From positions 1 to 49,769 of the IMG/VR virus record IMGVR_UViG_3300031857_000304: a stretch of 49,769 nucleotides of DNA; one strand, 5' to 3'. The notes under the pieces are model-generated. The model worked only from the letters and a program-made list of their open reading frames with translations, was not told where the DNA came from and ran no database searches. A program made the translations under genes and the position numbers. Shown piece after piece: positions 1 through 15,861 of this stretch. Numbering within the stretch: position 1 is the stretch's first letter; each line of letters opens with the position of its first letter. The DNA comes from a virus.

Positions 1-56
1 AACTGCTCCCTTCTATCTCTATACGGAACTATTATTGCTATTTTAGCACCTGTCAT
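1..56 (-). CDS. Glycosyltransferase, N-terminal fragment (possible beta-1,4-galactosyltransferase type), cut by window edge
   Basis: The start codon at 56 overlaps the stop of the preceding gene by one base (TAATG), which implies translational coupling. Eighteen codons are visible before the window ends, and the peptide reads MTGAKIAIIVPYRDRREQ. The stretch IAIIVPYRDR is typical of the first beta strand of the beta-1,4-galactosyltransferase (GT7) family and related GT-A enzymes, where the family usually shows an IIVPFRNR-like sequence. Function rests on this short motif and on its position at the end of a run of glycan genes. Any GT-A transferase would also fit. Confidence 0.55.
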   Translation of the reverse strand, partial: MTGAKIAIIVPYRDRREQ

Positions 57-907
57 TATATTAAAACTATTTGTTTGGTTAGTTTATTCCAATTACCGAA
101 AGATACAAAGGATTTTTCAGATTTCCAAGTCCATTCAGAAAAATCTTCTAAATTTATTGAGAGTTTATTTTTTGCCAAAGCCCTATACATTTTTCGGTAT
201 TCTTCTGAAAAAGCGTAATCAGTTCCTACATTTGCAACAGCTCTTAACCTTTCTGCACAAGTACTATCCCATTTAAAATGATGAACTTGTGTAAAACCCT
301 TTTCAATTGGATAACGAAGGGGGTGATTCCATCCCTGCCACCTCCAAGTTGTTTGTCCATTTATTTCTGCATAATGTTGCCCCGCAGTTACCTTTATCCT
401 ACCCTTCATAAGAGTAACCTTATTTGGACAGGCTCCACTTAAAGGGTATCTAAAAAAAGAACTAATCGGAAATGCTTCCCATAAATCAGTATCTTTTGTC
501 ACCAAAGGGAAACTACCATTCTCACCAATCTTATCTATAAAACCTCCTGTTACAAATTCCCAACCATTAGTTTCACACTCTTCAATTATAGAACCTATAT
601 CATCCCAGTACAATTGTAACTCATCATCATCTGAAACTATCCACCAATCATTAGGATATAAGGATTTAATTTCATTGTAAAAAGATGTTACTGCTTCCCA
701 GTTAAATACCTTCTCTTTTCTTTCATGATATACACATCCAAATTCTTCGGCTATATCTCTTGCTTCTTCGAATGATTTTTTATTATCCCTATCAGTAGAG
801 TAATAATTTACCAAATGAATTTCACTCACATTTTTTTTGTAATGTGATAACATTTGCCTCAAAGTATTTGTTCTATACCCAGTGACAGTAACTAATTTTG
901 GTTTCAT
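56..907 (-). CDS. GT-A type glycosyltransferase (GT2-like), 283 aa
   Basis: The N-terminus (LVTVTGYRTNTLRQMLSHY) resembles the nucleotide-sugar binding start of family 2 transferases. An acidic cluster DDDE at residues 93-96, after WWIVS, is a plausible metal-binding DxD motif. A VHHFKW stretch late in the protein matches the histidine often seen near the end of the catalytic domain. The protein therefore probably transfers a sugar from a nucleotide donor; the acceptor is unknown. The gene overlaps the upstream epimerase gene by four bases (ATGA) and the next transferase by one base, so it sits inside a coupled operon that begins with the tail fibre genes. Confidence 0.7.
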   Translation of the reverse strand: MKPKLVTVTGYRTNTLRQMLSHYKKNVSEIHLVNYYSTDRDNKKSFEEARDIAEEFGCVYHERKEKVFNWEAVTSFYNEIKSLYPNDWWIVSDDDELQLYWDDIGSIIEECETNGWEFVTGGFIDKIGENGSFPLVTKDTDLWEAFPISSFFRYPLSGACPNKVTLMKGRIKVTAGQHYAEINGQTTWRWQGWNHPLRYPIEKGFTQVHHFKWDSTCAERLRAVANVGTDYAFSEEYRKMYRALAKNKLSINLEDFSEWTWKSEKSFVSFGNWNKLTKQIVLI

Positions 908-1746
908 AAATTATCTATATATTTCTTCAATCTATCTTTTGGAAACCAACCCAATCTTCTAACTTCATCATCTTTTCTCCTACTCATTGAGTATTGCCCT
1001 AACCCACCTATTTTTTTTTCAATTTGTAAACTGGGAAACCTATTTTTAAACATTTCATAAACATTATGCACACTATATGAAACATCATTACCCATTTCCC
1101 AACCACCTAAATTAATTTCTTTTGTTTTTATTAATCTTACTAAACCATCAACAACATCATCGATATATGTAAATGGTTTTAATTGAGTTCCTAAATTATG
1201 ATAGGTAATAGGTAAATTATTGTTTATCTGATTTCTCCATTTTCCAATTAATGCCGCCATATGTGATTCAATTAATTCACCTGGCCCATATACATTATAT
1301 AATCTCACTATTGTTACATCAACACCCAATCCATTTCTATAAAAACGGCATAACTCTTCACCCATTTTTTTTGATGTGGAATAAGGTGATATAGAATGAT
1401 GAACCGATGATGAACTTGCAAATACTACTTTACACCCATTTCTTTTTGCATATTCTAATACACTTTTAGTTCCATCAACATTTGTGGAAAAAGTATAATT
1501 TTGATGCTCATATGATACCCCAACTCTACTAAATGCTGCTAAGTGATAAATCCAATCATAAGGTTTATCACTAATGTTTTCCATTGCCCTTACATCTCCC
1601 CCAACAAACTTAGCGCCTTCCGCCACTTTTGCTTCTCTACCGATATACTGATTATCCACTATATGAACTTCGTGTCCATCTGTAATCAATTGTTCGGAAA
1701 GTGCATATCCAATAAATCCACATCCTCCCGTAACTAAAATTTTCAT
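904..1746 (-). CDS. NAD-dependent epimerase/dehydratase (extended SDR family), 280 aa
   Basis: The N-terminal Rossmann motif TGGCGFIG (G7, G10, G13) binds NAD(P). The catalytic YxxxK pair is Y122/K126 in SPYSTSKKMGEE, and a serine run just before it (SSSS, from residue 111) supplies the third catalytic residue. RLYNVYGPGE is the usual sugar-nucleotide epimerase substrate region. The enzyme should interconvert or dehydrate an NDP-sugar (UDP-glucose 4-epimerase-like), making donors for the neighbouring transferases. At 280 aa it is a little shorter than typical GalE (about 330). It overlaps both neighbours by ATGA. The exact sugar cannot be read from sequence. Confidence 0.9.
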   Translation of the reverse strand: MKILVTGGCGFIGYALSEQLITDGHEVHIVDNQYIGREAKVAEGAKFVGGDVRAMENISDKPYDWIYHLAAFSRVGVSYEHQNYTFSTNVDGTKSVLEYAKRNGCKVVFASSSSVHHSISPYSTSKKMGEELCRFYRNGLGVDVTIVRLYNVYGPGELIESHMAALIGKWRNQINNNLPITYHNLGTQLKPFTYIDDVVDGLVRLIKTKEINLGGWEMGNDVSYSVHNVYEMFKNRFPSLQIEKKIGGLGQYSMSRRKDDEVRRLGWFPKDRLKKYIDNL

Positions 1747-2498
1747 TTCCTTCTTATTAAAGTAAGACCTGTTGATGATGGTTTATTTTTCACAATACCA
1801 TGATTAAAAAGATTAAATACTTCCCATTTATTACCATCAATTTCTTTTGCTAATTTTATAGGCCCACTCCAATCATCGTGATCTCCTCTATCTTTCACTT
1901 CTTGTGTTACAATAAACTTATCATGATATTTCGGGTCAGTATCATGCATTGAAATAATACCATTCTCACTCATTATCTGAGAATATAATTCAAAATCTTC
2001 TTTTACATTTTCATACGAATGACCTGCATCAATATGTAAATAATCTATTTTTATATCTTGCAATACGAAGAAATCATAGAATGCCTCCTCGGTAGTTGAG
2101 TTTATAATACGAGGGTGAAATGTTCTTCTAAAAAATGATTCTTCCGCAAACCAATCCACAACCCCACCAATACCATTCATAGCATCTACAACATAAGTTG
2201 AACCTATATCACCATAGTTAAAATCAGCATTTCCTTCAAAGATGTTTTGTTTGTGTAAATCGTATCGAGCCTGTGTCATTATACGAGGAATAAATCCACC
2301 ACCGCTACCCAAACAAACACACACTCTGGCCCTCATATATTGGATTAGAGAGTAGATAATTAGTCCATCACCTAAATGTGTATCAGTAGCTCCATGAGAC
2401 CAACGGTAGGGAACAGGATTGATTTCCTCTTCACCTCTAAAATCAAATTCTAAATTGTTGGTGAGATACTTTTTTATGTAGTTAAGGTCTTGTAACAT
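1743..2498 (-). CDS. Class I SAM-dependent methyltransferase (Methyltransf_24-like), 251 aa
   Basis: A glycine-rich SAM loop CLGSGGGFIP lies around residues 62-71. The later IDYLHIDAGHSYENVKEDFE segment contains the HIDAxHxY motif typical of O-methyltransferases of the CmcI/macrocin type, followed by GIISMHDT. Such enzymes methylate hydroxyls of sugars or small molecules, so this one may cap a glycan made by the neighbouring transferases. The start at 2498 is an ATG after a 31-nt gap containing TATATTTAATA, a near match to the late-promoter-like motif seen elsewhere. Its stop overlaps the epimerase start (ATGA). Confidence 0.8.
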   Translation of the reverse strand: MLQDLNYIKKYLTNNLEFDFRGEEEINPVPYRWSHGATDTHLGDGLIIYSLIQYMRARVCVCLGSGGGFIPRIMTQARYDLHKQNIFEGNADFNYGDIGSTYVVDAMNGIGGVVDWFAEESFFRRTFHPRIINSTTEEAFYDFFVLQDIKIDYLHIDAGHSYENVKEDFELYSQIMSENGIISMHDTDPKYHDKFIVTQEVKDRGDHDDWSGPIKLAKEIDGNKWEVFNLFNHGIVKNKPSSTGLTLIRRK

Positions 2499-2529: not shown

Positions 2530-3525
2530 TTAGGAATTATTTATGAGATTTCCAACTCTTTTTATCCATTTATTTTTATCCGAAAATTGTAACATATATT
2601 GTTTTAATTTGTTACATTCTTTTACCTTTTTTTCATAGGATGTGTGTATCAACTCATTGACTAAATCATCAAAATCCTCTTTCGTTTCAACCCTATATTC
2701 ATAATCACACTCTACTCCCCATTCCTTATGTAATATAGGCAATTTACCATAATTAACGGCATCAAATACTGAATACCCAAATGGTTCGTTTTTATAGGCC
2801 GAATGGAAAATTTGCCAACTTTTATCTATGAACCAATTACGATGGATGCCCATATCAAACTCATAAAACTTACATCTTTTAAAATTATACATTTCTGATA
2901 TATTGTAATAGTCGTATTTGTGAGTAAGAACTTTTGCCGAATGGTTTGATAGCCAATGTGGATTTTTACGGGATTCAAAACGGGCTGCATATCCTATTGT
3001 TTCCGAACATTCTTCTACTAATGGTCTCTCTTCGGTAAATGTGTAATAATTTGGTATAACCTCACAATCAAAATCATCCAAAAGAGGTGAATGATTTAAT
3101 CCTATCCAAACTCTTTTTTTACATTTTCTTAGCAGAAGGTTTTGCCAACTCAATTCTATTTTGGTTGGATATATTTTAAAATCAGTTCCACTTTCAGTTA
3201 TATCTTTTGCATATGCCTGAATAAAAACGGTATCCCATTTATGTTGATACTCCATAAGATACTCTCTATGTGAATATGGTGGATGAAGAAAAATTATTCT
3301 ATCACACTTATCTAATAAATCTTCCGTCCCTTTTGGATTCTCTAAACGAAATGTATGTGGTATAGGAATAGATGATTCAAGATGGTTAGCACTTCTTTTA
3401 TTATCAATTATGAGATGCACTTCTTCATTAAGAGTAGGGATTACTTCTCTAATAAAATTATTAACCCATATATCTCCTCCACCAATTATTTGATTTCCGG
3501 CAGAGGTCGTAACCATTATTATCAT
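2530..3525 (-). CDS. GT-B type glycosyltransferase (GT4-like), 331 aa
   Basis: The C-terminal half carries the GT-B nucleotide-sugar binding pattern: TIGYAARFESRKNPHWL near residues 177-193 (the usual GRF..KN...L segment) and EPFGYSVFDAVNYGKLPIL near 243-263 (the EPFG...EA...G.P pattern). The N-terminus has a GGGDIWVNNF acceptor-side loop. It likely adds a sugar to a glycan or protein using an NDP-sugar. A second ATG at codon 4 could be the true start. It follows the unknown 243-aa gene after 12 bases in the same operon. Confidence 0.75.
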   Translation of the reverse strand: MIIMVTTSAGNQIIGGGDIWVNNFIREVIPTLNEEVHLIIDNKRSANHLESSIPIPHTFRLENPKGTEDLLDKCDRIIFLHPPYSHREYLMEYQHKWDTVFIQAYAKDITESGTDFKIYPTKIELSWQNLLLRKCKKRVWIGLNHSPLLDDFDCEVIPNYYTFTEERPLVEECSETIGYAARFESRKNPHWLSNHSAKVLTHKYDYYNISEMYNFKRCKFYEFDMGIHRNWFIDKSWQIFHSAYKNEPFGYSVFDAVNYGKLPILHKEWGVECDYEYRVETKEDFDDLVNELIHTSYEKKVKECNKLKQYMLQFSDKNKWIKRVGNLINNS

Positions 3526-3537
3526 AATATAAAAATA

Positions 3538-4269
3538 TTATATCTTTTTTTGATGATTTGAAAATGGACATCCATATACATCTTCTCCATTAAAATAACG
3601 TCTACCACTTCCATGCGGTTTACTTATATCTTTAGTGACTCTTTCTATACCAAAGTCTTTCATCGCTAATCGTTCTTCATCTATTTGCTCTTTGGTAAAA
3701 ATATCTTCACCTCTCTCTAATGAAAATGAATCTATAAAATATCTAGGAGTAGGAATCACACATCCAACTAACTCTCCTTTATTAATTATAATTTTATGAT
3801 TTTTTCTCGTAATTTTTAAATTAAATGTAAAATCTCTACGAAGATTATCGGTTTCAATAACACCGGTCATATGTTGAATACCATCTATCCAATAATTAGG
3901 AGGATTAATTGTCATAAGATTAATATCGGAAGGTGTTCTGAATGTAAATCGATTTTGAATTGTAACGGTTCCCATTCCAAAGTGGGAATTTATATGCTGA
4001 TACATCGGGTTATCGCCATCATCTAAAATCTCAACTTTCGTATTGGACGGAGAATCACCACCATCCCATTCTACCGAAAAAGTTTTTAAAGATTTTATAC
4101 CAAACCCCATTTGATTTCCAATTACCAAAGGTAAACAAAAATATGCATGATTTATAAACCAGTCTCGTTTGTTCTTTCCTTTTAATGGAAAAATAATTAA
4201 ATCATTTGAATTTTCAAATTCAGATGATTCGCATATTGTGATTAATTTATTTTCTGGAACTTTTATCAT
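3538..4269 (-). CDS. Conserved protein of unknown function in the glycan operon, 243 aa
   Basis: I place the start at the ATG at 4269, which overlaps the stop of the upstream transferase gene (ATGA), rather than at an in-frame TTG nine bases earlier. The protein has no signal peptide or membrane segment. It looks globular and beta-rich, with WDGGDSPSNTKVEIL and PTPRYFIDSFSLE as recognisable blocks and a C-terminal GRRYFNGEDVYGCPF. It recalls a group of uncharacterised proteins found beside glycosyltransferases in bacteria and marine phages (possibly DUF6065), but I cannot confirm that without a profile search. Its context suggests a part in sugar modification. Confidence 0.6.
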   Translation of the reverse strand: MIKVPENKLITICESSEFENSNDLIIFPLKGKNKRDWFINHAYFCLPLVIGNQMGFGIKSLKTFSVEWDGGDSPSNTKVEILDDGDNPMYQHINSHFGMGTVTIQNRFTFRTPSDINLMTINPPNYWIDGIQHMTGVIETDNLRRDFTFNLKITRKNHKIIINKGELVGCVIPTPRYFIDSFSLERGEDIFTKEQIDEERLAMKDFGIERVTKDISKPHGSGRRYFNGEDVYGCPFSNHQKKI

Positions 4270-5096
4270 ATGTAACAATATTTATTTTTTCTAAATTTAT
4301 CATATTCCCCTAAATATTCATCAGGTATAAATAAATAATGATTAGGAGACATATATCCTGTCACCGTTTTTTTATTTTTCAATTCATAAGATACTTTACC
4401 TTCTATACAATTAATCTCAAAATCTTCTATTCCCATACCAACATCATGTGATGAAAGAGTAGAATATTTTACACCATTTTCTTTGAATACTTTTTGAGCA
4501 GCATATTGTTCTGATAATCCTTTGAACCAATTATAATTATCTTCATCTAATTTTTCTTTTGCAATTTGATTTAATTCAAATGTTTTATCTAATATTTTTT
4601 CAAATAAATTATCTATTTTTTTAAATGAGGTATTTGGTATAATAAGCTGTCCAGATGGTATCCCATTTTCACCTAACACTTTAAAAAAATGTTCATTATA
4701 TCCTTCATGCAGAGAATATATGTAATCCTCATTGTACTTATCAAAAAAGTATCGTATATCTCCATAAAAAATACTATCTACATCAAAGTTAAAAATAGAT
4801 GTATATCCTTTCAAAAATACTTTATCCATATCATACCATTTTTGAAGATAGACACTATATTTTGTCTTATCAAAATCACTTTTATAAAAAGTTACATTTG
4901 GAAAATCTTTTATAATATTTAAATCAAAATAAGTATTATTCCAAAAATCAAAATCAGGTGAAGATACGCTTATAAAAACATCATAATCTCCTTTATAATA
5001 TTTTGACCAAGTTTCAAGTGCATAATATAGCATAGAATAATATTTCATACTTCTTCTATCTATACACAATACCATATACATTGCATGCTTATTCAT
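4266..5096 (-). CDS. GT-A glycosyltransferase with DxD motif (GT8-like), 276 aa
   Basis: The clearest motif is D105-V-D107 in IFNFDVDSIFYGDI, a classic metal/nucleotide-sugar binding DxD preceded by a hydrophobic strand and followed by an FFDK helix, as in GT8-like transferases. The N-terminal block MYMVLCIDRRSMKYY fits the first strand and helix of a GT-A fold. A glycosyl transfer role is likely, with unknown donor and acceptor. It overlaps the 2OG oxygenase gene upstream by eight bases and the 243-aa gene downstream by four. This makes it the first sugar-transfer gene after the polyproline adhesin and oxygenase. Confidence 0.7.
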   Translation of the reverse strand: MNKHAMYMVLCIDRRSMKYYSMLYYALETWSKYYKGDYDVFISVSSPDFDFWNNTYFDLNIIKDFPNVTFYKSDFDKTKYSVYLQKWYDMDKVFLKGYTSIFNFDVDSIFYGDIRYFFDKYNEDYIYSLHEGYNEHFFKVLGENGIPSGQLIIPNTSFKKIDNLFEKILDKTFELNQIAKEKLDEDNYNWFKGLSEQYAAQKVFKENGVKYSTLSSHDVGMGIEDFEINCIEGKVSYELKNKKTVTGYMSPNHYLFIPDEYLGEYDKFRKNKYCYI

Positions 5097-5637
5097 AATT
5101 CATTGAATGCGTTTTATCAAATGTCCAAAAAGATGTTAAGGTATATCTTATACCATTTATAATTGGGTTTACACCATGAAGAAATTCCAAAGTACCAGGA
5201 AAAAATACTAATGTATTTAATTTTGGTTTAATTTCAATATTTTGGTTTGGAAAGTATATCTCACCTCCTTCATAATCATCATTTAAATAATACACACATC
5301 CAAAATGCCTCCAATTATATATATGAGGTCTACCAACTTCTTCTCCATCTGCATGTGGATGCTGAAAATCTCCAATTTCCCATTTAACCAATCCTAAATA
5401 ATCTGGAAAAATTTGTTCAGATAAATTATAATCTAAGATAATTTTATTCCGAATAGAATCTAATAATTGTTTGTTTTCGTTTTCTAAATTTTCAAATTGG
5501 TTATTGTAAATTACTCTACCAGACCAAACATTGGAATGCGTTCTTTCACCCCAAAGTTTGGTGGTATTTGAAAAATTTTTATATTTTTCAAAATTTATTT
5601 CAGATAACCAATTTTCATTTATTGATATAAACATCAT
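5089..5637 (-). CDS. 2OG-Fe(II) oxygenase, prolyl-4-hydroxylase-like, 182 aa
   Basis: The double-stranded beta helix signature is complete. H95 and D97 (HADG) plus H154 (FLHGV) form the iron triad, and R164 (GIRYTLTSFW) is the 2-oxoglutarate anchor. YYLNDDYEGGEIYFP and PKLNTLVFFPGT are the strands typical of the P4H-like subgroup (2OG-FeII_Oxy_3). The reaction is O2- and 2-oxoglutarate-dependent hydroxylation, with proline in protein the usual substrate of close relatives. It starts six bases after the stop of a protein with 60 prolines in three runs, and it is followed by glycosyltransferases. Substrate assignment is inference. M2 could also be the start. Confidence 0.85.
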   Translation of the reverse strand: MMFISINENWLSEINFEKYKNFSNTTKLWGERTHSNVWSGRVIYNNQFENLENENKQLLDSIRNKIILDYNLSEQIFPDYLGLVKWEIGDFQHPHADGEEVGRPHIYNWRHFGCVYYLNDDYEGGEIYFPNQNIEIKPKLNTLVFFPGTLEFLHGVNPIINGIRYTLTSFWTFDKTHSMNYE

Positions 5638-5643
5638 TTATTT

Positions 5644-6750
5644 TTAAAATGGATTACATAATTCAGTTGAACCAAACGAACCTCCTCCAAATCTAGAGGC
5701 CGTCCATTGTCTGGCATTTACACCATCTGAATAGTATCCTGTACTAGCAATTGTTCCGGAATTATCCGAATATAATTGCGTAGCATCCATCCAATTAGCA
5801 GCATTTATATAATACTGCGATTGTGGTGCATTACAAGAGTTCTGATGAGTGGTATTATCATAACCCAAATATATTGAAGTATAAGCCGGTGGTGGCGGAG
5901 GCGGCGGTGGCGGCGGTGGCGGTGGTGCCGCACATGCCGATACCGTATTAATAGTTCCATTACCTTCAACATAATAAACAGTAGTTCCATTTGAATAATA
6001 CCCATTAGGAGCATTTAATACTCCACCCGCTAACTTTAACACACATCCAGTTGTTAAATTCGTACAAGTACTATAAAATGTATTAGTAGGGTTACTACAT
6101 GCACCCACACTATTTCCAGCATCATATCCCAACTCAAAAGAATATAATGGTGGCGGTGGAGGTGGCGGTGGCGGTGGTGGAGGTGGAGGCGGTGGAGGTG
6201 GTGCCGCAGCGCACGAAATCGTTACAGCGGTAGTATTCACCGTTGTATTAGTCCCATCATAAACCGCAAAATACCAATTACCATCAGGTATCATAATCCA
6301 AGTATATGGATTACCTGGTGATGGTATAGCTTCTCCAAATTCAGAACCCATTCCACCTGCTACCAAATTAGCAACATTTGCCTGAGTGGTATCTCTTGCA
6401 ATTCTAACATATGTTCCGGTGCCCCCAGCCATAGTTGAAGTTACTTGACCCGATCCTCCACTACAAATTACATTTGTCTGAGTAATTGATAGAGCCGGTG
6501 GAGGTGGTGGCGGCGGTGGAGGTGGAGGTGGCGGTGGCGGCGGTGGAGGTGGAGGTGGCGGTGGCGGTGGTGGCGGTGGAGGAGTTGCACCTCCTGCACT
6601 CTTACCATAAAACTCATCCATTCCATGTGGAGTAGAAGGAATACCATACGCAATAGCGGCAGCATCTAGATCAATTCTAGTTCCAGATGCTATACCTCTA
6701 TCGGTATTCATCTGATCCATTGAAATAGGTCCTGATTGTGGTAACGCCAT
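5644..6750 (-). CDS. Polyproline-linked modular tail adhesin, 368 aa
   Basis: The protein starts with MALPQSGPISMDQMN, an N-terminal segment shared by many virion proteins of T4-like phages of Bacteroidota (structural role likely). Three proline runs of 29, 18 and 13 residues separate an Ig-like domain (CSGGSGQVTSTMAGGTGTY region) from two related C-terminal modules. Both modules show LGYD, a CN/CS-P pair, an aromatic YY or FY, and GYYS(D/N)G, and each ends near a final cysteine. Prolines use CCA, CCG and CCT codons, which gives GC-rich islands in an AT-rich genome. ATG at 6748-6750 overlaps the tail fibre stop (TAATG), so it is coupled to the fibre. The likely role is a surface-binding tip or side adhesin held out on stiff polyproline-II rods. 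Confidence 0.75.
   Translation of the reverse strand: MALPQSGPISMDQMNTDRGIASGTRIDLDAAAIAYGIPSTPHGMDEFYGKSAGGATPPPPPPPPPPPPPPPPPPPPPPPPPPPPPALSITQTNVICSGGSGQVTSTMAGGTGTYVRIARDTTQANVANLVAGGMGSEFGEAIPSPGNPYTWIMIPDGNWYFAVYDGTNTTVNTTAVTISCAAAPPPPPPPPPPPPPPPPPPLYSFELGYDAGNSVGACSNPTNTFYSTCTNLTTGCVLKLAGGVLNAPNGYYSNGTTVYYVEGNGTINTVSACAAPPPPPPPPPPPPPAYTSIYLGYDNTTHQNSCNAPQSQYYINAANWMDATQLYSDNSGTIASTGYYSDGVNARQWTASRFGGGSFGSTELCNPF
5894..5935 (-). repeat. Polyproline-coding run (13 prolines)
   Basis: An uninterrupted block of CCN codons, read as cgg/tgg/agg triplets on the plus strand, lies between the second and third globular parts of the adhesin. Codons are mixed, so the run is not a simple trinucleotide expansion. 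Protein-level selection is likely. Confidence 0.85.
6149..6203 (-). repeat. Polyproline-coding run (18 prolines)
   Basis: The second CCN run of the adhesin gene joins the Ig-like domain to the first LGYD module. It mixes CCA, CCG and CCT codons with no CCC. It is much more GC-rich than the surrounding genome. Confidence 0.85.
6496..6582 (-). repeat. Polyproline-coding run (29 prolines)
   Basis: The longest CCN run follows the conserved N-terminal virion segment. At about 3 angstroms per residue in a polyproline-II helix, it would form a rigid spacer of roughly 9 nm (my estimate). Copy number could vary by slippage because the DNA is internally repetitive. Confidence 0.85.
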
Positions 6751-9700
6751 TACTTATTTTTTAATTCTTCTATTTCTTTTTTTAATTCCTTTATTGCTTC
6801 AACTAATAATGGAACTACTTTTTCGTATTGTATTGTCAAATAATTTTCACCAGATTTCGAATTACCATTTCCATCATTATCAAATGGTGCAATCTTTACT
6901 GCTTCAGGTAAAACTTCTTGTACATCTTGTGCAAACATCCCAACTACTTTTTCATCAGTACTATATCCAGCTAATTTATTTGCAGTTTCATTCCAATTAT
7001 AAGTAAACCCGGATAATTTATTTAATTTTTCTAATGGATTGGATAACAATTCTATATTATTTTTCAATCTTCTATCAGATGAGAATGCAGTTATGTTTCC
7101 AGTTGCGGTTAATCCTCCTCCAACAGCAACAAAATCTGCATTATTGGCTCTTTGTACTTCAAAATATCGGGTATTACTAAATACAACTTGAAATCCTCCG
7201 GCTGCCAATTCAGTTTTTGAAACGGGAATAGCTGCCTCAATAGATGAAAGAGATGGAGTATTAATATCCATATAAAAATAAGCCGGAGGATTAAATTGAC
7301 TCATTACTCCTGCGCCATAAACTCCTTTTATAACAGGTGTAAGTGAATAAAACCCTTGTTTTAATACAACGGTTGTTGATAACGTTCCTCCTGACATAGT
7401 ATGAGTAATGATACTAGTACCTATTGTATTCGTTACTTGACTACCATTATAAGAAACAGTACTATATACATCTCCATCTGGTGTTGTTAATCTAAACCCA
7501 TATTCATAGTAAAATTTTTGATATTCTAGATATGTGGCTGGAATTTGTCCATCATCTCCGCTAACTTCAAATCGATTCGGAGTAGCTCCACCTACATTTG
7601 CAGTTATCGTACATGTTCTTCCAATATTAGCATCACCCGCAGATATAGTAAATGAAGTACTTCCACCTGTTAAATCACCAGTATTTTCTCTATAATATTC
7701 AGTTCCTATTTGATTGTTATATGTGTAAGCGGTAAATCCAGCTGATTGTCCGATTGAAGATAAATTAAATCCACTAAAACTAACAGATTTCGGTGATAAA
7801 CCATTATTAGCATTTATATCAACCACTAAACTATTTCCACTATAAAGTTCTACTGATGGTACAGTTGCTGATAATTGAACCTTTTTATTATTCGCAGTTC
7901 CGTATAAAGTTGGACCGGTCAATACCCAACTTCCAATATATCCATCGGTAGCTGCAATAGAACCACTAAAGTATCCACTTGCTGCAACTAACTCTCCACT
8001 AAATGTACCACCGGCAGCTGCTAATTTTCCTTTAAAAAATGCATCTCCCGAAGAACTAATAAAAAAGTTTCTACTTCTTAAAGAACCATTATCTAAATTA
8101 AAAATAGTTCCATTTACAGTATAACCTCCGATGGCCAAAGTTTCACCACTTCCTAATGTATATCCAGTCGATGTTATAACTCCCGTTGAAATCTTACCAC
8201 CATGAATAGTTGTTACATTTGCACCACCAATATGATTTGTAATAGAACCCGATGGTATATGGTTAATTACATTTGTACCATCTTCTAAAGTATTTGCAGC
8301 AGTAAACGTTACCAATCCACTAAATCCGATTGCCTGAACAGGTGTACTAAATGATGGTGTAGAAGATACATCACTTCCTGCAGATGATTCCACCGCAGTA
8401 TATGTTGAATACCAATATTTGTTACTATTTCCGGCAGCGAATGTTGGTGCACCCTTTGCCCAATTCGATGTTAAACCACTAAAGTTTCCGGTACTAAATG
8501 TAAATGAAGTTGCTCCGGGGGTAGATGGTGCAGATCCCGCTGATAATTGATAATAAATTATTCCGGTTGCAGTTCTTAATCCATTTGTACCATTTGTACC
8601 ATTTGTACCATTTGAACCTGAAGGCCCGGTGGCACCGGTAGCACCAGTTGGAACTTTAGTAAATCTAACAACAATTGTTTGGGTTTGCCCCGCAGTTCCC
8701 TCACTATCGGTATGAGTAACTACAATAGTAGCAGATGCTTCTGCTGCATTCATCACCGCCGATGTCATCGTAAGAGTATTTCCACTTATAGTTGGATTCG
8801 TTGAAAACCCACTATATGTTGCAGTCATAGATGTGAATCTACTCGTTGTTCCCTCTAAAGCATTTACAGTAACATTGGATAAAGTTCCAGTTTGTACACC
8901 CGCAGTATTAGCCAATACCGATTGAGCCTGTGGTGATGCACTTACAACCACCAATGGAACTGCCTTTTTAATTTTTGATAATGTTATAGTATCATTAAGA
9001 ATTCTATTTGTACTCTCACTATCAGTAACTCTTGCAGTTAGGGTAATTACGGTTGAATTTACTCCATTACCCAATGTTCTTCCAGCCAAAGTTATTGTAC
9101 TACTAGTAGAACCAGAACTTGCTACTATATTAGAAATATCAGATGATGATGCGGTTATAGAATTTATAGTTAATGATGATGTTACACCATTATATGTTTG
9201 CCTAACAATTACACTTGAATTTGTAAATGCATCAATTTGTTCTCCGGTGGATTTTGCTGATACTGATTGTGCAGCGTTTGTGGTAATGATTTCCAAAACA
9301 GGTGCTGCTTTTTTTACTTTTGATAGCGAAATGCTACCTGAAATATTTCTACTAGATCCTTCTGAATCTAAAACAGTTCCATTCAAAACTAAATCAGCTG
9401 AATCAAACCCATTTGCTAACGATGCCGTTATGAATTCATTTGATACGGTTTTTCCAAATATAACGGCTCCATTCGGAATCGATGTGGGATTTAATGAAGT
9501 TGCTAATCTTCTTGTGGTAACCCCATCATATGTATCAGATATACTCATTGTCACCGGTACAAAAGTTCCAACTTGAATACCAGTTGATGTAGCATCGGTG
9601 CTTTGATTTGAATTAACAATATCAAATGATATGACAGGCGCTGCCTTTTTTACTTTAGAATATGTAATTTCTTTGGATGAACTTATTATTGTTCCCCCAC

Positions 9701-12380
9701 CATCTTTATATTTTACATCTAATACCAAAGAACCACTATCTACTGATAAAGAAGATAATGAATAATTAATACCATTAAAATTAGCGGCAACCCCTGCGGA
9801 TGTAGATGAAGATATACTAGCGCTATATGAATTAGTAACAAATAGTGATGAATAACTTATTACTTCATTTCCAACTTTTACTAACAATGAACCACTACTA
9901 GCATTTAAACTTCCTGATATTGCGCCAGTTGAAAGAGCGGGAAATGATGTATTTTCATTTGTTGCAATTACCGAAAACCCATCTAAAACTTTTACAGGTG
10001 AAATTTTTACAAAATCAGAATACTCTATTCCTAAATTATCAGAACCAGTAAATGCATATGTTACATCTCCTATTGAATAAGGATATGAACTACCAACTAA
10101 GCTGTACGTTGTAACACCATCCACAGTTCCTACTATTGATAACGCAGGTGCACCAGGTGAAGAATTTACTTCAATTGGAACTATTAATGATTCTAAATTT
10201 TGTCTTTTAGCTTGAATTAAAATTGTTTGGCCAACTGGGTTTAAACTTAAATTTGTAGCTTTATAAAAAAATTGATTTGTATTAGAACTTACAAATAAAC
10301 CCTTTGAATCAGTTCCATCTTGTCCACTTGCCCCTGCCACTAATCTACCTATTGTAAATCTTTTTATAAATGGCTGAGTTGATTCGGTTTCTTCTAATGT
10401 ATAGGTAATTCTATCAACTATTGTATCACCACTTTGTGTAGGTAAATTATGAAGAGAACCTGTGAATTTTGTAACATCTAATGAGGCGGAAAAACTATAT
10501 AAATCTTCGTGATAATATGTAAATTCACCTGGATAATTTGCTGCACCCCCATAAACTGATTCTGAAATAACAAATCCTCCGGTGTCAAACACTTGTCTAG
10601 TCAAAGTAAGATTTCCTAAAATTCGATTTTTAGTTCCTACTATATTAATAGATTGAGAAAGAGGTAATGGGTATAAACTAGATGAGAAATTAAAAAATTG
10701 TTTATCTACATCTATTGTAATATTTTTATCAATTAATCCAATGTTACCACTTTGAAATGTTTTAGCGCTTGTTACTACAATGGGAACATAGTTGTTATTT
10801 ATATCGAAAAACTCAAATTTAAAATCAAATGTTTCTCTCTCTAAATCTCTATCCACCGGAATTATAAAACTAAATTCATCTGGTGAAAATCCTAATTCAT
10901 GTGATGCTTTTAAACTCACACTACCAACATGCCAATAAGAATTTGCGGTTGTATTACTTGCTTCAAAATTTATTGTCCAATTATCGGTTATAGGTGGGAC
11001 AAAATTAAATATCCTTTTATTTGCTCCTCTAAATTCATTTGAACCGGTAAATGTTGCCAAACTTTGAGTTACATAATAATTTGAAATACCACTTCCACTT
11101 CGAAGAGTGCTAGTTAAATAAACCTTTAATGTATCGTTTGTATCATTAGATGATGTATCGTAATAATTGTAAAATTCTAATGCATATTCACTACCACTTT
11201 CTAATCTTATATCATCACCCAAATTTGTTGATAAACGATTGTTTCTTAACTTTACAGCTCTATAAATTTTTGATGAATCTAAAATATTACCCGCATTACT
11301 TTGTGTAGCCCAAAATGCATTCCAACTTTGTCCATTCTCATATGATTGGCTAAAATGGCCTACATCTATTGCAGAACCGGATATAATAGTTGTTAATAGT
11401 TCCGATGGTTCTACTCTCGTATCTTGTATAACTTCGTAATCAACATTCGAGGCTCTTGATTTTTTAAATACTTTAATTCTTTCAACATCCCCAACAAAAG
11501 TTTGAAGATGGTTTATTTCAAATCTACCGAATGAACCTAATATAGATGATGCGACGGGATTTTGATTATATTGATATGAAAGAGAATAATTTTTACCACT
11601 AAAATTTGATACCAATCCATCAGATGAAGTAAACGGTGTCGCCACTATTACTGATGTGTTATTAAGGTATTCTACTATTTCAGCATTTTGTATATTAGTT
11701 CCTGTTACTGATATATAAGTTCCACCATCTGCAAATACTCCGCTTTGCTTTTGAATTAAGTATCTTATTCCCCCTCTATATCCTCTTAATGTAGTTCCTT
11801 CCGATGGTGTTAAAGCCACACCTCTTACCAATCCATCATTTTGAGTTGCATTTACTAAATTTCTAGAATAAAAACTTTCATTTAATTCTTCAATTATTAC
11901 TTCCGGTCTTCTTACAAATCTTACTCTCGTTTCGTTAGGAATATTTTTATTAATTTTTATATCCCTTTCCCATTTTATATTATAGATTCCTTCCCAATCT
12001 TCCGGTATAGGTTGAATAAATCCATTTTCATCCAAATACTTATCCAATTCACCCAAAATAGTTATTTTACCTATTCCAATTGGTGTATCTTCATAAACAT
12101 AAACTCCTATTAATTTTGATAAACCTTCATAGTATTCGGGTATACCTTCACCAGGTTGAACAAATAATGGATTACCTTCGGTATCTAAAACTTCAATTTT
12201 GATTTCAGTTGATGGTTTTAGAAATGTAGAACCCTCTATTAGAAATCCATTTTTTCCCGCAGTAAATAAATCTCCTAATTCAGAAATTTTAAAATATTGT
12301 GAAAGGGGGTTATTATCAACTATAAAAGTTTGAAAGTTGGATAAATTTTGTAGTGGAGAAGTTTTCTTTATTCTAGACAT
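6750..12380 (-). CDS. Giant tail fibre protein with C-terminal S74 intramolecular chaperone, 1876 aa
   Basis: The C-terminal ~110 residues are the endosialidase-type chaperone (Peptidase_S74): SSDRRLKNNI from residue 1767 with the serine/lysine pair (S1768, K1773) expected to self-cleave, followed by YNWN, GMFAQDVQEVLPEAV, LTIQYEKVVPLLVEAIK and a terminal coiled coil. A collagen-like stretch (GATGATGPSG then GTN repeats) lies near residues 1245-1265. Three beta-sandwich repeats of about 110 residues, each opening with SKVKKAAP or SKIKKAVP, span roughly 910-1243. The trimeric fibre should bind the host surface. The N-terminus (MSRIKKTSPLQNLSNF) is presumably the baseplate anchor. The gene heads the tail fibre/glycan operon. 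Confidence 0.92.
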   Translation of the reverse strand: MSRIKKTSPLQNLSNFQTFIVDNNPLSQYFKISELGDLFTAGKNGFLIEGSTFLKPSTEIKIEVLDTEGNPLFVQPGEGIPEYYEGLSKLIGVYVYEDTPIGIGKITILGELDKYLDENGFIQPIPEDWEGIYNIKWERDIKINKNIPNETRVRFVRRPEVIIEELNESFYSRNLVNATQNDGLVRGVALTPSEGTTLRGYRGGIRYLIQKQSGVFADGGTYISVTGTNIQNAEIVEYLNNTSVIVATPFTSSDGLVSNFSGKNYSLSYQYNQNPVASSILGSFGRFEINHLQTFVGDVERIKVFKKSRASNVDYEVIQDTRVEPSELLTTIISGSAIDVGHFSQSYENGQSWNAFWATQSNAGNILDSSKIYRAVKLRNNRLSTNLGDDIRLESGSEYALEFYNYYDTSSNDTNDTLKVYLTSTLRSGSGISNYYVTQSLATFTGSNEFRGANKRIFNFVPPITDNWTINFEASNTTANSYWHVGSVSLKASHELGFSPDEFSFIIPVDRDLERETFDFKFEFFDINNNYVPIVVTSAKTFQSGNIGLIDKNITIDVDKQFFNFSSSLYPLPLSQSINIVGTKNRILGNLTLTRQVFDTGGFVISESVYGGAANYPGEFTYYHEDLYSFSASLDVTKFTGSLHNLPTQSGDTIVDRITYTLEETESTQPFIKRFTIGRLVAGASGQDGTDSKGLFVSSNTNQFFYKATNLSLNPVGQTILIQAKRQNLESLIVPIEVNSSPGAPALSIVGTVDGVTTYSLVGSSYPYSIGDVTYAFTGSDNLGIEYSDFVKISPVKVLDGFSVIATNENTSFPALSTGAISGSLNASSGSLLVKVGNEVISYSSLFVTNSYSASISSSTSAGVAANFNGINYSLSSLSVDSGSLVLDVKYKDGGGTIISSSKEITYSKVKKAAPVISFDIVNSNQSTDATSTGIQVGTFVPVTMSISDTYDGVTTRRLATSLNPTSIPNGAVIFGKTVSNEFITASLANGFDSADLVLNGTVLDSEGSSRNISGSISLSKVKKAAPVLEIITTNAAQSVSAKSTGEQIDAFTNSSVIVRQTYNGVTSSLTINSITASSSDISNIVASSGSTSSTITLAGRTLGNGVNSTVITLTARVTDSESTNRILNDTITLSKIKKAVPLVVVSASPQAQSVLANTAGVQTGTLSNVTVNALEGTTSRFTSMTATYSGFSTNPTISGNTLTMTSAVMNAAEASATIVVTHTDSEGTAGQTQTIVVRFTKVPTGATGATGPSGSNGTNGTNGTNGLRTATGIIYYQLSAGSAPSTPGATSFTFSTGNFSGLTSNWAKGAPTFAAGNSNKYWYSTYTAVESSAGSDVSSTPSFSTPVQAIGFSGLVTFTAANTLEDGTNVINHIPSGSITNHIGGANVTTIHGGKISTGVITSTGYTLGSGETLAIGGYTVNGTIFNLDNGSLRSRNFFISSSGDAFFKGKLAAAGGTFSGELVAASGYFSGSIAATDGYIGSWVLTGPTLYGTANNKKVQLSATVPSVELYSGNSLVVDINANNGLSPKSVSFSGFNLSSIGQSAGFTAYTYNNQIGTEYYRENTGDLTGGSTSFTISAGDANIGRTCTITANVGGATPNRFEVSGDDGQIPATYLEYQKFYYEYGFRLTTPDGDVYSTVSYNGSQVTNTIGTSIITHTMSGGTLSTTVVLKQGFYSLTPVIKGVYGAGVMSQFNPPAYFYMDINTPSLSSIEAAIPVSKTELAAGGFQVVFSNTRYFEVQRANNADFVAVGGGLTATGNITAFSSDRRLKNNIELLSNPLEKLNKLSGFTYNWNETANKLAGYSTDEKVVGMFAQDVQEVLPEAVKIAPFDNDGNGNSKSGENYLTIQYEKVVPLLVEAIKELKKEIEELKNK
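8581..8616 (-). repeat. Tandem 9-bp repeat coding Gly-Thr-Asn
   Basis: On the minus strand the unit GGTACAAAT recurs about four times, with the last copy diverged, and encodes the collagen-like GTN triplets of the tail fibre. Near-identical DNA units in frame suggest the triplet number can change by slippage without breaking the gene. Confidence 0.8.
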
Positions 12381-12452: not shown

Positions 12453-12638
12453 ATGATAAAGAAATCCGATAGATATGCGATGTTACAACTCCCAAAAGAG
12501 GTTCATACCGTATTAAAAGATTATTGCGATGAGAGAGGTCTAAAAATGAGTAGGTTCGTATCTAATCTAATTAAAGAAAAAATACGAACCACCTCAAAAG
12601 TTAGAAATATACTACCGGCGGAAAGAATCAAAACTTAA
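12453..12638 (+). CDS. Ribbon-helix-helix (Arc/CopG-like) DNA-binding protein, 61 aa
   Basis: The sequence DRYAMLQLPKEVHTVLKDYC followed by KMSRFVSNLIKEKI matches the RHH layout: a short beta strand (YAMLQLP), helix A (KEVHTVLKDYCDERG) and helix B starting MSRFVSN. It probably dimerises and binds an operator. It is the only convincing plus-strand gene. It lies divergent to the tail fibre operon, and its end overlaps the 3' end of the nuclease gene by 11 bases, tail to tail. Autoregulation or control of the fibre operon through the shared 72-nt gap is plausible. The basic C-terminus may add DNA contacts. Confidence 0.8.
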   Translation: MIKKSDRYAMLQLPKEVHTVLKDYCDERGLKMSRFVSNLIKEKIRTTSKVRNILPAERIKT

Positions 12639-15600
12639 CGGAACTAAACCCGCTATCTTTCTTAATTTCTAAAAGAGTATCCACCACATCTCTCATAGAA
12701 TCAATATGTGAAATTACAATCACAAATTCAAATTGAGTTTTTAGATAAGCAAATGCCATAAATAGTGATTGTAAATTCTCACTATCTAATGTTCCAAATC
12801 CTTCATCAATAACTAAAAAGTTTGGTCGAGGAAGATTACAAATGTTAATTAAAGCAACTCTAATTGCTAATCCACTAATAAACTTCTCCATACCACTACA
12901 CATTTCCAACGGCCACTTTCTACTATCTCCATAATTGATATAAGCATTTACATTCTTACCATCCATTTGTAGATTCATACTGAACTCTACTATTTGACCT
13001 AAGATGTTATTAATCTCACCTTCAATAGATGGGAGTGTTTTAGAAATCAACTCATAAGAAATACCATCTCTTTTCACCGCATCTAAATAGTATTCGTATA
13101 ATTTGTTGGTTTCTTCTAATTCTTTTATCTTCGCGATGTTTTCTTCTATTGTAGTCTTTTCTTGCCTCGCTTTGGATATGTTGGTATTTATATGAAGAAT
13201 CGTATCACTTTTTCTTTTTAACTCCCTCTTAATACCATCAACAATTTCTTTAGTATCATTAATATTCTTTCGAAGTTGTTTATTAGTTTCGATTTGTTCT
13301 TTGTTCTTATGATACTCATCGATGTTTGAAGTAGCAACCTTTATACTATCTTCACAATCCCTTATATCTAATTTTGTTTTTGAGATCTGTTCTTTGATTC
13401 GACTAACTAATGTTTTGGAATCATTTATCTCTTTATGTTTTGTCTGATATGTTTTATATGCTTCTTCTATTCCATTTAGTATTTCCAAAGTTTGTCTAAT
13501 ACTCAACACATCAGATAATGCCTCGTCAACAATACTTTCTAATTGAGGTAAAGAAGTTTTTGCATTCATTGCATCTTTTACAAATGCATTATCACAACAA
13601 AACTCACAATTCGGGTCGTATTTATGATTATCTAAATGTTTGATTTTTTCTATTGCACCATCTAAATAAATCTTAGCACTCGAATGAACTTTTTCAGCTT
13701 TAACTAAATCATCTTTTTTTGTTGCATAATCAGAGTATGCATATTCTATATCAACACTACTATCTCCTATTGTAAAATTAGATAATACTTTTTCTTGCTC
13801 AACTAATTGTAATACTATCTCTTCTGCCTGAATAAGTTGGGTATCCATTTTTTCTAACTTATCAATATGAGATTCTAATGAAGATGTTAGTGAATTTAAT
13901 TTATTTGTTTCAACATCTAAATCTAATGTGATTGTAGTTTGGATAATCTGTGATTCTAAATTTGATAAAGTTTTTTCTACTTCAGTTTTATCTAATTCCA
14001 AATCTTCTTTTTCAGATTGAAGTAAATCAAATTGAGATTGACCATCATTAATAATCGTTTCTAATTCCGCCAATCTTTGTGAGAAGTCATCTTTCTTAAA
14101 ATTCTTTAATAGGATAGCCGCTTCTTTATTATCTTCATTTACTACATCGAATAATTTATCAAATACATTTACACCGATGTATTGTGCTAAAATATCTTTT
14201 CTTTCCGATTGTGATTTATCTATGAACAATGCGTTATTACCTTGTAACGAAAGTGATGTCATTACAAAATCTTCATAAGTTCCTAAATACTTTCGGATTA
14301 TATCGTTTGTATCTCTTCTTTCTTCACCATTCAAAGATTCCTCAATTCCATCTACAATTCTATAAAAGTTTACATTCACTTTTACATTCCCACCTTTTGT
14401 AGTATGAGCTTCTCTTTCAATGTAATAATCTACGCCATCAATTTCAAAATTAAACTTACAATTGAATGTATCTTTTTGATTATTCATAATATGGGTAGCC
14501 TTAAATGCTCTACTACACTTATCAAAAATACAAAATGAGAGTGAATCGAAAAGAGATGATTTACCTTGTGTGTTTGGTGCAAATAATCCTATTATACCCC
14601 TTGCATTTTCAAAGTTTATTTTGTTCCCTTCACCATATGAAAACATATTACTGAATTCAAATGTTTTAGGAATCCATAGTATATTATCAGTTTCTTCGTG
14701 AGTAATTTTTAGATTTACATTATTATTTATCTCAACAATTTTATCTAATGTTTTATCATCTAATAAAAACTGCCTTTCCAAATACTCTCTAATCAATCCA
14801 TTCTGAACATTCGGGTCTTTAACATTACCCGCTAAGTTTCTAGCGTTTCGGTTTTTTGATTTTAATGAATTAAGAGTATCTTGTTTGGTAATTGTAATTT
14901 CATTTACCTTAAACATTTGTTGTAATTCAGCTGATACTAATTTTATATCACTAACTTCGGTATCAGAAAAACGAACTCTTAAACGCGGTTGTTTAGGTAA
15001 TTTAGTTCCAATCTCGTTTCTTACCCATTGAGGAATCACACCGTTTATAACATCAATCGTTAGGTAACCATAATCATTGTGAATGTTAAATTCTTCAAAT
15101 GTTTCAGTATCGACATTCCAAAGAAGGTATCCATGATTCTCTAAATACTCTCCATGATTTTGTTGAACTACGGATCCGGCGTAAACTACTATTGGTTTAC
15201 CATTTGCTCTATCTCTTTGTTGAACAACTTGTCTTTTGTGTATATCCCCCATCAATACCATATCAAACCCATCAAACATATCAGGTGTGAAATTGTGAGA
15301 AGATACAACATAACCAATATCGGTTTTTGCCGCATCAACGGGCCCGTGGAAGAAACAAATTTTCTTATTACCATTTACATCAACTCCTTTCGGCCAATTT
15401 TCTTTCTTATCCAAAATCGAATAAACAGTAAAAGTTATATCATCGGTGATTTGATATACACCAGTATCTCTTAAATAAACTAAATTTGGGAGTGAAAGAT
15501 TATCACATATAGGAGTTAGAACATCTAAACGGTCTTTATTGTTTAGATTACAATCATGATTTCCCGTAATAACAAATGTAGGTCTTCTCTTAGCACATTC

Positions 15601-15822
15601 AGTAAAGAACCAAGTGATTTCCCTTACTAATTCAGGAGACATTTCAGTTTTAGCGTGGGCTATATCACCTGCTAAATAGATTATAGAATCCTCTAAATTT
15701 TGGGAATCCACATCAGCTAAAAACTTATTTAATACCTCTCTATACTCTTTATGCCTTTTTAGATTACGAATATGTAAATCGGCCAAATGATAGATGTATT
15801 TAATGTTATCTAATTTAATCAT
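12628..15822 (-). CDS. Fused Mre11/Rad50-type (SbcD-SbcC, gp47-gp46) recombination nuclease, 1064 aa
   Basis: Residues 1-300 are a calcineurin-like phosphoesterase of the Mre11/SbcD/gp47 type: DLH (D15, H17), GDIAH (D53, H56), GNHD (87-90), FFHG (H159) and GDIH (192-195). From about 388 an SbcC/Rad50/gp46 ATPase begins, with Walker A APNTQGKSS (K421), a long coiled coil, a zinc-hook CEFC (C739, C742), an ABC signature near CSGMEKFISG and Walker B FLVIDEGFGTLD (D1006, E1007). In T4 these are two proteins. Here they are one chain, which should process DNA ends for recombination-dependent replication. A Bacteroidota-type -7 box lies 16 nt upstream of the start. Confidence 0.93.
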   Translation of the reverse strand: MIKLDNIKYIYHLADLHIRNLKRHKEYREVLNKFLADVDSQNLEDSIIYLAGDIAHAKTEMSPELVREITWFFTECAKRRPTFVITGNHDCNLNNKDRLDVLTPICDNLSLPNLVYLRDTGVYQITDDITFTVYSILDKKENWPKGVDVNGNKKICFFHGPVDAAKTDIGYVVSSHNFTPDMFDGFDMVLMGDIHKRQVVQQRDRANGKPIVVYAGSVVQQNHGEYLENHGYLLWNVDTETFEEFNIHNDYGYLTIDVINGVIPQWVRNEIGTKLPKQPRLRVRFSDTEVSDIKLVSAELQQMFKVNEITITKQDTLNSLKSKNRNARNLAGNVKDPNVQNGLIREYLERQFLLDDKTLDKIVEINNNVNLKITHEETDNILWIPKTFEFSNMFSYGEGNKINFENARGIIGLFAPNTQGKSSLFDSLSFCIFDKCSRAFKATHIMNNQKDTFNCKFNFEIDGVDYYIEREAHTTKGGNVKVNVNFYRIVDGIEESLNGEERRDTNDIIRKYLGTYEDFVMTSLSLQGNNALFIDKSQSERKDILAQYIGVNVFDKLFDVVNEDNKEAAILLKNFKKDDFSQRLAELETIINDGQSQFDLLQSEKEDLELDKTEVEKTLSNLESQIIQTTITLDLDVETNKLNSLTSSLESHIDKLEKMDTQLIQAEEIVLQLVEQEKVLSNFTIGDSSVDIEYAYSDYATKKDDLVKAEKVHSSAKIYLDGAIEKIKHLDNHKYDPNCEFCCDNAFVKDAMNAKTSLPQLESIVDEALSDVLSIRQTLEILNGIEEAYKTYQTKHKEINDSKTLVSRIKEQISKTKLDIRDCEDSIKVATSNIDEYHKNKEQIETNKQLRKNINDTKEIVDGIKRELKRKSDTILHINTNISKARQEKTTIEENIAKIKELEETNKLYEYYLDAVKRDGISYELISKTLPSIEGEINNILGQIVEFSMNLQMDGKNVNAYINYGDSRKWPLEMCSGMEKFISGLAIRVALINICNLPRPNFLVIDEGFGTLDSENLQSLFMAFAYLKTQFEFVIVISHIDSMRDVVDTLLEIKKDSGFSSVKF

Positions 15823-15838
15823 AGTATATTTCTTGTTG

Positions 15839-15846
15839 CAAAGATA
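15839..15846 (-). promoter_or_regulatory. Bacteroidota-type promoter -7 element (TATCTTTG) for the nuclease gene
   Basis: The minus strand reads TTTTTCGTATCTTTGCAAC, an exact TAnnTTTG match followed by C. No good TTTG -33 box is seen at the usual spacing. The same TTTTTCGTA sequence precedes the -7 box of the 286-aa gene at 17862. Confidence 0.6.
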
Positions 15847-15861
15847 CGAAAAATAAATGAA

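Follow-up and report, generated by a model that had tools for sequence, protein, structure and literature searches.

Organization of the locus

The viral DNA analysed here, hereafter called the window, is a stretch of 49,769 nucleotides corresponding to positions 1 to 49,769 of the IMG/VR record IMGVR_UViG_3300031857_000304. On its minus strand, next to a tail-fibre gene, it carries genes for a protein with long proline runs, for a prolyl-hydroxylase-like 2-oxoglutarate-Fe(II) (2OG-Fe(II)) oxygenase and for a protein of the DUF6065 family, and the recurrence of these three genes in other phages suggests that the oxygenase acts on the proline runs. The genes concerned are, in reading order:

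6750-12380, minus strand: tail fibre with a C-terminal Peptidase_S74 chaperone, 1876 amino acids (aa) (PF13884, 57.3 bits; PHROG tail fibre families)
5644-6750, minus strand: proline-run protein, 368 aa, putative tail-fibre tip or adhesin; no Pfam or PHROG match
5089-5637, minus strand: 2OG-Fe(II) oxygenase, 182 aa, prolyl-hydroxylase-like (PF13640; HxD...H and R; predicted model and its nearest folds)
4266-5096, minus strand: DxD protein, 276 aa, possibly a glycosyltransferase of GT-A type, lying here between the oxygenase and DUF6065
3538-4278, minus strand: DUF6065 (PF19541) protein, 243 aa from the ATG at 4269 (PF19541, 125 bits)

The proline-run gene and the oxygenase gene are 6 bases apart, and the oxygenase and DxD genes overlap by 8 bases, in agreement with an initial annotation made from the sequence alone. 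The S74 fibre itself contains a short collagen-like Gly-X-Y stretch, with a PF01391 match that stays under the cut-off of that family.

The proline-run protein

The runs of 29, 18 and 13 prolines described in the initial annotation were found at residues 57-85, 184-201 and 276-288 of the 368-aa protein. The first follows an N-terminal part of 56 aa and is separated from the second by a Cys-containing domain; another domain precedes the third run, after which comes a C-terminal domain. The 37 further window genes that were examined have proline runs of 2 at most, and proline accounts for 3.2% of their residues; in 2000 shuffles of the proline-run protein the longest run had a mean of 3.4 and a maximum of 9. 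The proline codons of the gene are mixed (36 CCA, 20 CCG, 16 CCT and no CCC), so that it is not a single-codon repeat. Contigs of other metagenomes, designated below by L numbers, carry runs of 29/18/13 (L002, L004), 23/19/13 (L003) and 32/19/13 (L006); the first run thus has 23, 29 or 32 prolines and differs in length even between near-identical contigs. A chance or reading-frame artefact was rejected, as the flanking coding sequence, the shuffles and the relatives all confirm the frame.

The runs are uninterrupted proline, with neither the Gly-X-Y repeats of collagen-like proteins nor the Ser-Pro(n) repeats of extensin-like ones. The protein matched no Pfam or PHROG family. Because its gene adjoins that of the S74 tail fibre, it is likely to be a virion protein.

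The oxygenase

The oxygenase matches PF13640 with 44.2 bits (cut-off 27). The iron- and 2OG-binding residues noticed initially are present as H95, D97, H154 and R164, all invariant across 60 aligned sequences. Its predicted structure (predicted local distance difference test score, pLDDT, 96.2) best matches the fold of prolyl 3-hydroxylase 1 (P3H1), with a Z score of 19.0 over 173 residues and a root-mean-square deviation (rmsd) of 2.3. Within two Z units of P3H1 are the uncharacterised oxygenase 6n1f (rank 4), vCPH and PHD2, the nearest named folds being P3H1, vCPH, PHD2 and the prolyl 4-hydroxylase (P4H) of Bacillus anthracis. A profile of the 60 oxygenases also had P3H1 as its best PDB match (2.7e-15), followed in order by B. 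anthracis P4H, PBCV-1 P4H, the PKHD-type proteins PiuC and Sbal_3634, P4H subunit alpha-2 and PHD2/EGLN1. By profile and by fold alike, the best named PDB matches are prolyl hydroxylases.

The triad, the basic residue and the predicted double-stranded beta helix place the window protein in the 2OG-Fe(II) oxygenase superfamily, and its fold, profile and gene neighbours point to a prolyl-hydroxylase-like enzyme. Collagen-type P4Hs use Lys as 2OG-binding residue. The oxygenase was classified as prolyl-hydroxylase-like and not as a collagen-type P4H because this residue is Arg164, in 60 of the 60 aligned sequences.

Near relatives and the DUF6065 partner

Relatives were drawn from two scans, one of viral contigs with the oxygenase profile (the best 80 of 543 relatives) and one for DUF6065 (the best 80 of 257). 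Sixteen viral loci (L002-L011, L020-L025) encode an oxygenase 61-100% identical to that of the window, and in 16 of 16 (oxygenase identity at least 61%) a proline-run gene lies directly upstream and DUF6065 downstream. They amount to 11 distinct loci, since L002-L006 are near-copies with the same oxygenase and L021/L022 form a pair. The survey of relatives proposed with the initial annotation thus turned out in its favour at this distance. The proline-run open reading frame (ORF) of L025 is split by a frame change (6836-7525 and 7200-7982), the first part holding the long runs.

The set of three genes recognised initially comprised the proline-run protein, the oxygenase and the DxD protein. 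All three are present, but the constant third gene had been overlooked: as the DxD protein does not adjoin the oxygenase or is replaced in several relatives, it is DUF6065 that accompanies the oxygenase in all near ones. The window protein scores 125 bits with PF19541 against a cut-off of 26.6. Its predicted model (pLDDT 89.3) resembles dUTPases, with Z scores of 9.3-10.4 over 104-125 residues among the matches listed (rmsd 3.0 over 108 residues for the match at Z 10.4), so that DUF6065 appears dUTPase-like by predicted fold; dUTPases are absent from its sequence-profile matches.

The DUF6065 scan yielded further triplets of proline-run protein, oxygenase and DUF6065: L237 (runs of 31, 14 and 11), L239 (7, 9), L051/L257 (14, 7), L260-L262 (14, 17, 26), L266 (36), L273/L274/L276/L278/L279 (up to 15, 19, 25) and L277/L280 (17; 6, 24). 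In L063/L271 the proline-run protein has 75 aa and a run of 6, and its gene is flanked by those of an S74 fibre and the oxygenase; a contig labelled Pseudomonas (L313) carries a triplet with a tail fibre upstream; tail-fibre genes thus precede the cassette in the window, L063/L271 and L313. Compared outside the runs, twenty proline-run proteins formed 8 groups that had no detectable similarity to each other; three of these groups each consist of a single sequence truncated at a contig end (L008, L011, L239), and L063 is joined to its group by a 24-residue match only.

Association of proline runs with the oxygenase-DUF6065 pair

The pairing was counted over 265 non-redundant oxygenase genes whose upstream sequence was visible, as a run of at least 6 prolines directly upstream. 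An oxygenase was taken as followed by DUF6065 when a gene scoring at least 150 with our own profile lay within 1 kb; a divergent DUF6065, such as that of L039, falls among the others. Polyproline lineages supplied most of the sequences from which the oxygenase and DUF6065 profiles were made. A run was present in 18 of the 42 oxygenases closely followed by DUF6065, in none of the 218 others and in none of the 5 with DUF6065 upstream (18/42 versus 0/218, Fisher p 1.4e-16, kinship ignored). With a wider measure (at least 10 prolines per 24 residues, at most 1.5 kb away, same strand) the counts were 16/42, 32/218 and 0/5. One locus counted as having no run, L012, encodes an oxygenase at 41% identity without DUF6065, with a (PPSF)n protein approximately 410 bp upstream.

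At the nucleotide level, a (CCN)10 stretch occurs in 10 of 50 DUF6065 records versus 1 of 50 distant-oxygenase records, a comparison that is biased because 7 of the 10 (L251, L257, L260, L266, L280, L141, L237) were previously known carriers of proline runs; L235, L272 and L281 are new. The longer ORF reads proline in 9 of the 10, L141 being cut by a contig end and ambiguous. A (CCN)7 stretch was found in 8 of 16 DUF6065 records, reading glycine in four (G014, G016, G036, G044), proline in three (G026, G043, G046) and both within one ORF in G050. The L281 record (G046, 194,787 bases) is a large phage record in which many proline-rich stretches lie at a distance from DUF6065; it has 82 overlapping (CCN)10 matches, and the frame at a few of these is proline, in an ORF of approximately 880 aa.

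Other proline repeats and the converse scan

The proline-rich ORFs near oxygenases hold polyproline, (PPFF)n, PPPF, PPYV, PPPV or PPSF repeats, and one is collagen-like. In 93 non-redundant phage loci, 41 of them with such an ORF, proline-rich ORFs represent 31 of the 270 ORFs lying within 0.5 kb of the oxygenase; their share falls to 9 of 180 between 0.5 and 1.5 kb, to 3 of 315 between 1.5 and 4 kb and to 1 of 309 at greater distances. Because they concentrate beside oxygenases, a converse scan for (PPFF)3 was made, in which the oxygenase was not used as bait; this and the other pattern scans ended at a limit of 120 stretches each, which are samples in no known order. A (PPFF)3 ORF was found in 106 of the 120 stretches. 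In 63 of these 106 loci an oxygenase is encoded on the same strand at most 2 kb away, downstream of the repeat ORF in 63 of 63. These oxygenases comprise 59 distinct sequences at 90% identity and form 7 clusters by single linkage at 45%. A DUF6065-like gene lies within 4 kb in 44 of the 106 loci; the one tested, from L039, passes PF19541 with 107.5 bits, and the oxygenase beside the PPFF gene of that locus has B. anthracis P4H as its best match (1.6e-6). In the controls, an oxygenase within 2 kb accompanied 0 of 68 polyglycine ORFs and 5 of 112 (PT)n ORFs (5 of 107 when only those with flanking sequence are counted). L141, which has an oxygenase beside a proline run, was classed as polyglycine, its glycine ORF being 4 aa longer at the contig end; it was not counted, the oxygenase being on the other strand.

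Of two PPFF proteins tested, L064 contains fibronectin type III above the Pfam cut-off and L080 just below it; the latter also matches a tail-protein PHROG at 8.4e-5. By eye, in a PPYT-type and a PPFF-type protein (L275:1786-2868 and L381:3762-5014) the repeats are followed by a Cys-led segment resembling an autoprocessing domain of the Hint (intein/hedgehog) type. In L065, two distinct genes with proline repeats were seen near oxygenases (3566-4885, 14951-16549), and L064 also has two (4709-5599, 13453-13965).

Probable hydroxylation of the proline runs and alternative explanations

The best-supported reading, which we consider reasonably probable, is the one already proposed in the initial annotation, namely that the oxygenase hydroxylates prolines of the adjacent proline-run protein. 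Its observed basis is the gene order, the intact active-site residues, the prolyl-hydroxylase-type predicted fold and the recurrence in divergent phages, to which the pairing in all near relatives and the arrival at oxygenases from (PPFF)3 contribute.

Several observations weigh against it. First, 24 of the 42 oxygenase-DUF6065 pairs have no proline run upstream. Twelve of these are on viral contigs; in three of them (L026, L030/L031 and L275) a proline-rich repeat gene lies within approximately 2.5 kb of an oxygenase. The other 12 are on bacterial genome contigs, from Comamonadaceae, Gammaproteobacteria, Planctomycetaceae and others:

Bacterial contigs with the oxygenase-DUF6065 pair and no proline run upstream: L312, L314-L318, L320, L321, L323-L325, L327

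Several sizeable DUF6065 records, for instance G002 (45.6 kb) and G007 (114 kb), are without any (CCN)7, and cyanophage-type oxygenases had no proline-rich neighbour in 6 loci examined of the 126 matching INPHARED records (all below 60% identity). Accordingly, the ancestral oxygenase-DUF6065 pair may serve another purpose, proline rods being a recurrent use of it. Second, 48 of 49 unselected polyproline loci are without such an oxygenase within 2 kb, and proline runs therefore do not require the enzyme. Third, 78 of the 106 PPFF proteins form one homology group, so that the 63 PPFF cases are not independent, and PPFF-type loci were among the sources of the broad oxygenase profile. Fourth, the nearest-fold evidence is limited, as prolyl hydroxylases are abundant among solved structures and the uncharacterised 6n1f ranks high. 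Finally, the proline label needs only 3 changes on the oxygenase tree described below, and an independent-pairs test had too few pairs to have power. The initial annotation had itself named oxygenases regularly lacking a proline-rich neighbour as an argument against it; this holds in part for the distant relatives and not for the near ones. On a further bacterial contig with DUF6065, L326, an ORF with a run of 19 prolines was observed two genes downstream of DUF6065. Polyproline as such was rejected as the driver of the association, as only 1 of the 49 unselected loci has an oxygenase, and this exception, L171, appears to be the L025 locus itself (equal scores and run lengths).

The pairs without a run, bacterial contigs included, could also mean that the oxygenase-DUF6065 module, together with sugar genes, modifies a surface glycan, a sugar nucleotide or another virion protein, and adjoins the proline-run gene by way of an often-exchanged tail-fibre locus. 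The dUTPase-like predicted fold of DUF6065 could suggest a nucleotide ligand, and homologues of the DxD protein lie near DUF6065 in L229, L234 and L252, with no proline run in the neighbourhood shown. However, no tail-fibre-like upstream gene was seen in 10 loci without proline runs that were inspected by eye, with no family search made on those genes, and the (PPFF)3 scan reached oxygenases without having been baited with them. We regard this explanation as unlikely.

Long proline runs stall ribosomes, and the oxygenase might instead hydroxylate a host translation component (EF-Tu or a ribosomal protein) and so ease ribosomes through them, as bacterial prolyl hydroxylases that bind or modify EF-Tu are named in the titles of PDB entries (4iw3, 5v7y). 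This seems the least probable of the explanations considered, as nearly all unselected polyproline loci manage without the oxygenase and the linkage is also strong with (PPFF)n repeats, which have no long proline runs.

The adjacent genes might also be co-inherited neutrally, without functional coupling. On a tree of 87 oxygenases the proline label needs 3 changes versus a shuffled mean of 16.6, at least 2 being forced by the starred branches; this small number of changes speaks for such hitch-hiking, the label having few origins but persisting for long. On the other hand, the upstream proteins come from 8 groups that have proline runs in common but are otherwise dissimilar, differing types of proline repeat recur beside differing oxygenases, and the nearest oxygenase was without exception downstream of the (PPFF)3 ORF, all of which makes neutral co-inheritance quite improbable.

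The DxD protein and the sugar genes

On the same strand and in the same reading order, the five genes listed above are followed by:

2530-3525, minus strand: 331-aa protein, no family match; homologues in 6 other lineages, several of them with polyproline; a role in sugar transfer would be a guess
1743-2498, minus strand: methyltransferase (Methyltransf_24); homologues beside the cassette in 6 other lineages
904-1746, minus strand: NAD-dependent sugar epimerase/dehydratase
56-907, minus strand: 283-aa protein in which DDDE is invariant, a possible glycosyltransferase; matches no family but has homologues in 5 other lineages

Neither the 276-aa DxD protein nor the 331-aa protein had a match in Pfam, PHROG, NCBIfam or the PDB, and family and structure searches gave no match for the 283-aa protein. 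The DxD motif on which the initial annotation had based a glycosyltransferase is invariant, as D105-x-D107, in 4 of 4 aligned sequences (the window protein and three homologues), and one homologue, L234, narrowly passes PF03407 (Nucleotid_trans) with 24.1 bits (cut-off 22). The 276-aa protein is thus a possible candidate glycosyltransferase by its sequence, with neither a family match of its own nor a conserved position. DUF6065 directly follows the oxygenase in L008-L011, L020, L023 and L024, with no DxD protein adjoining, and a different protein of approximately 240 aa takes its place in L007, L021/L022, L025 and L237.

Glycosyltransferase-like genes occur nearby in several lineages. L008 carries genes of glycosyltransferase families GT1 and GT9, L023 one of GT7, and in the L239/L262/L266/L274/L280 group a profile made from two related proteins together matches glycogenin (1.5e-5). 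No glycosyltransferase was recognised beside the pair in L009/L020, L011, L051, L063 and L313, among which Pfam was searched only with the 417-aa gene of L009, without a match. Since the putative glycosyltransferase of the window is not conserved at its position, the glycosylation proposed initially is plausible and weaker than the hydroxylation reading, and the sugar step would be lineage-specific at best.

Elsewhere in the window, at 12628-15822, a single ORF combines a phosphoesterase part like SbcD with an ATPase part like SbcC (PHROG 100 and 77).

Proposed function of the cassette

The cassette probably serves to assemble a proline rod at the tail-fibre tip and to modify it. The S74 fibre gene is followed by that of a protein in which polyproline stretches, expected to form stiff polyproline II helices, space small Cys-containing domains. 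With Fe(II) and 2-oxoglutarate, the oxygenase would hydroxylate prolines of this protein, assisted in some manner by DUF6065. In the lineage of the window, nearby sugar genes may then put sugar on hydroxyproline. What we infer from the observations above is the reaction and its substrate, along with its timing, the placement in the virion and the addition of sugar.

In a wider and more tentative form, to which we give somewhat less than an even chance, tailed phages would possess a widespread virion maturation in which a proline-repeat protein (polyproline, PPFF, PPPF, PPYV or PPSF), one or more oxygenases and DUF6065 produce a hydroxylated and, in some lineages, glycosylated rod, the equivalent in bacterial viruses of the maturation of collagen and extensin. 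The genomic link to proline-rich and probably virion proteins provides a concrete candidate substrate for a large group of oxygenases. If true, tailed phages perform hydroxyproline chemistry on their own particles, which would also place DUF6065 in a functional context. Small hydroxylases that act on plain polyproline might in addition be of use as tools.

Comparison with known systems

The system was looked for in cultured phages and rejected there, as INPHARED gave no match to DUF6065 at 1e-5, to the 276-aa protein at 1e-3 or to the N-terminal 58 residues of the proline-run protein at 1e-2. In the accessible part of the PubMed Central (PMC) literature searched, a scope outside which subscription papers and preprints fall, no paper on hydroxylated proline rods of phages and no proposed protein substrate for phage prolyl-hydroxylase-like oxygenases was found among the papers listed.

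The 2OG-Fe(II) oxygenases of cyanophages and other marine phages (PHROG 61) belong to the same superfamily as that of the window. According to the available part of PMC12774648, prolyl-hydroxylase-like 2OG oxygenases are widespread in phages of marine bacteria and have EGLN3-like structures, and the available part of PMC2984593 discusses the P4H domains in Syn9 as possibly involved in DNA repair; in those parts neither paper proposes virion proline as a substrate. Glycosylation of mycobacteriophage virions is cited in the accessible part of PMC12619734. The vCPH of PBCV-1 and the P4H of B. anthracis share the fold class of the window oxygenase and are among its nearest solved structures, but they are only approximately 19-22% identical to it, and the window oxygenase has Arg at the 2OG-binding position.

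Plant extensins are proline-rich rods that are hydroxylated and glycosylated; they differ from the window protein, which has pure proline runs and no Ser-Pro(n) motifs. In T-even-like phages, the gene 38 adhesin is encoded by a small gene directly after the distal tail-fibre gene, and gp38 uses glycine-rich polyglycine II helices. The proline-run gene of the window likewise directly follows the S74 fibre gene, but its product contains polyproline and has no PHROG match and, for its N-terminal 58 residues, no INPHARED match.

The closest published system by activity is that of mimivirus, in which, according to the available part of PMC9546862, collagen-like proteins are modified by L230 (a lysyl hydroxylase and glucosyltransferase) and R699, and a mimiviral collagen prolyl hydroxylase is said to have been identified. 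As there, a virus-encoded repeat protein is accompanied here by a putative virus-encoded hydroxylase and a possible glycosyltransferase. Mimivirus, however, is a giant virus of amoebae with collagen-like proteins and hydroxylysine, whereas the window belongs to a tailed phage with polyproline and a DUF6065 partner.

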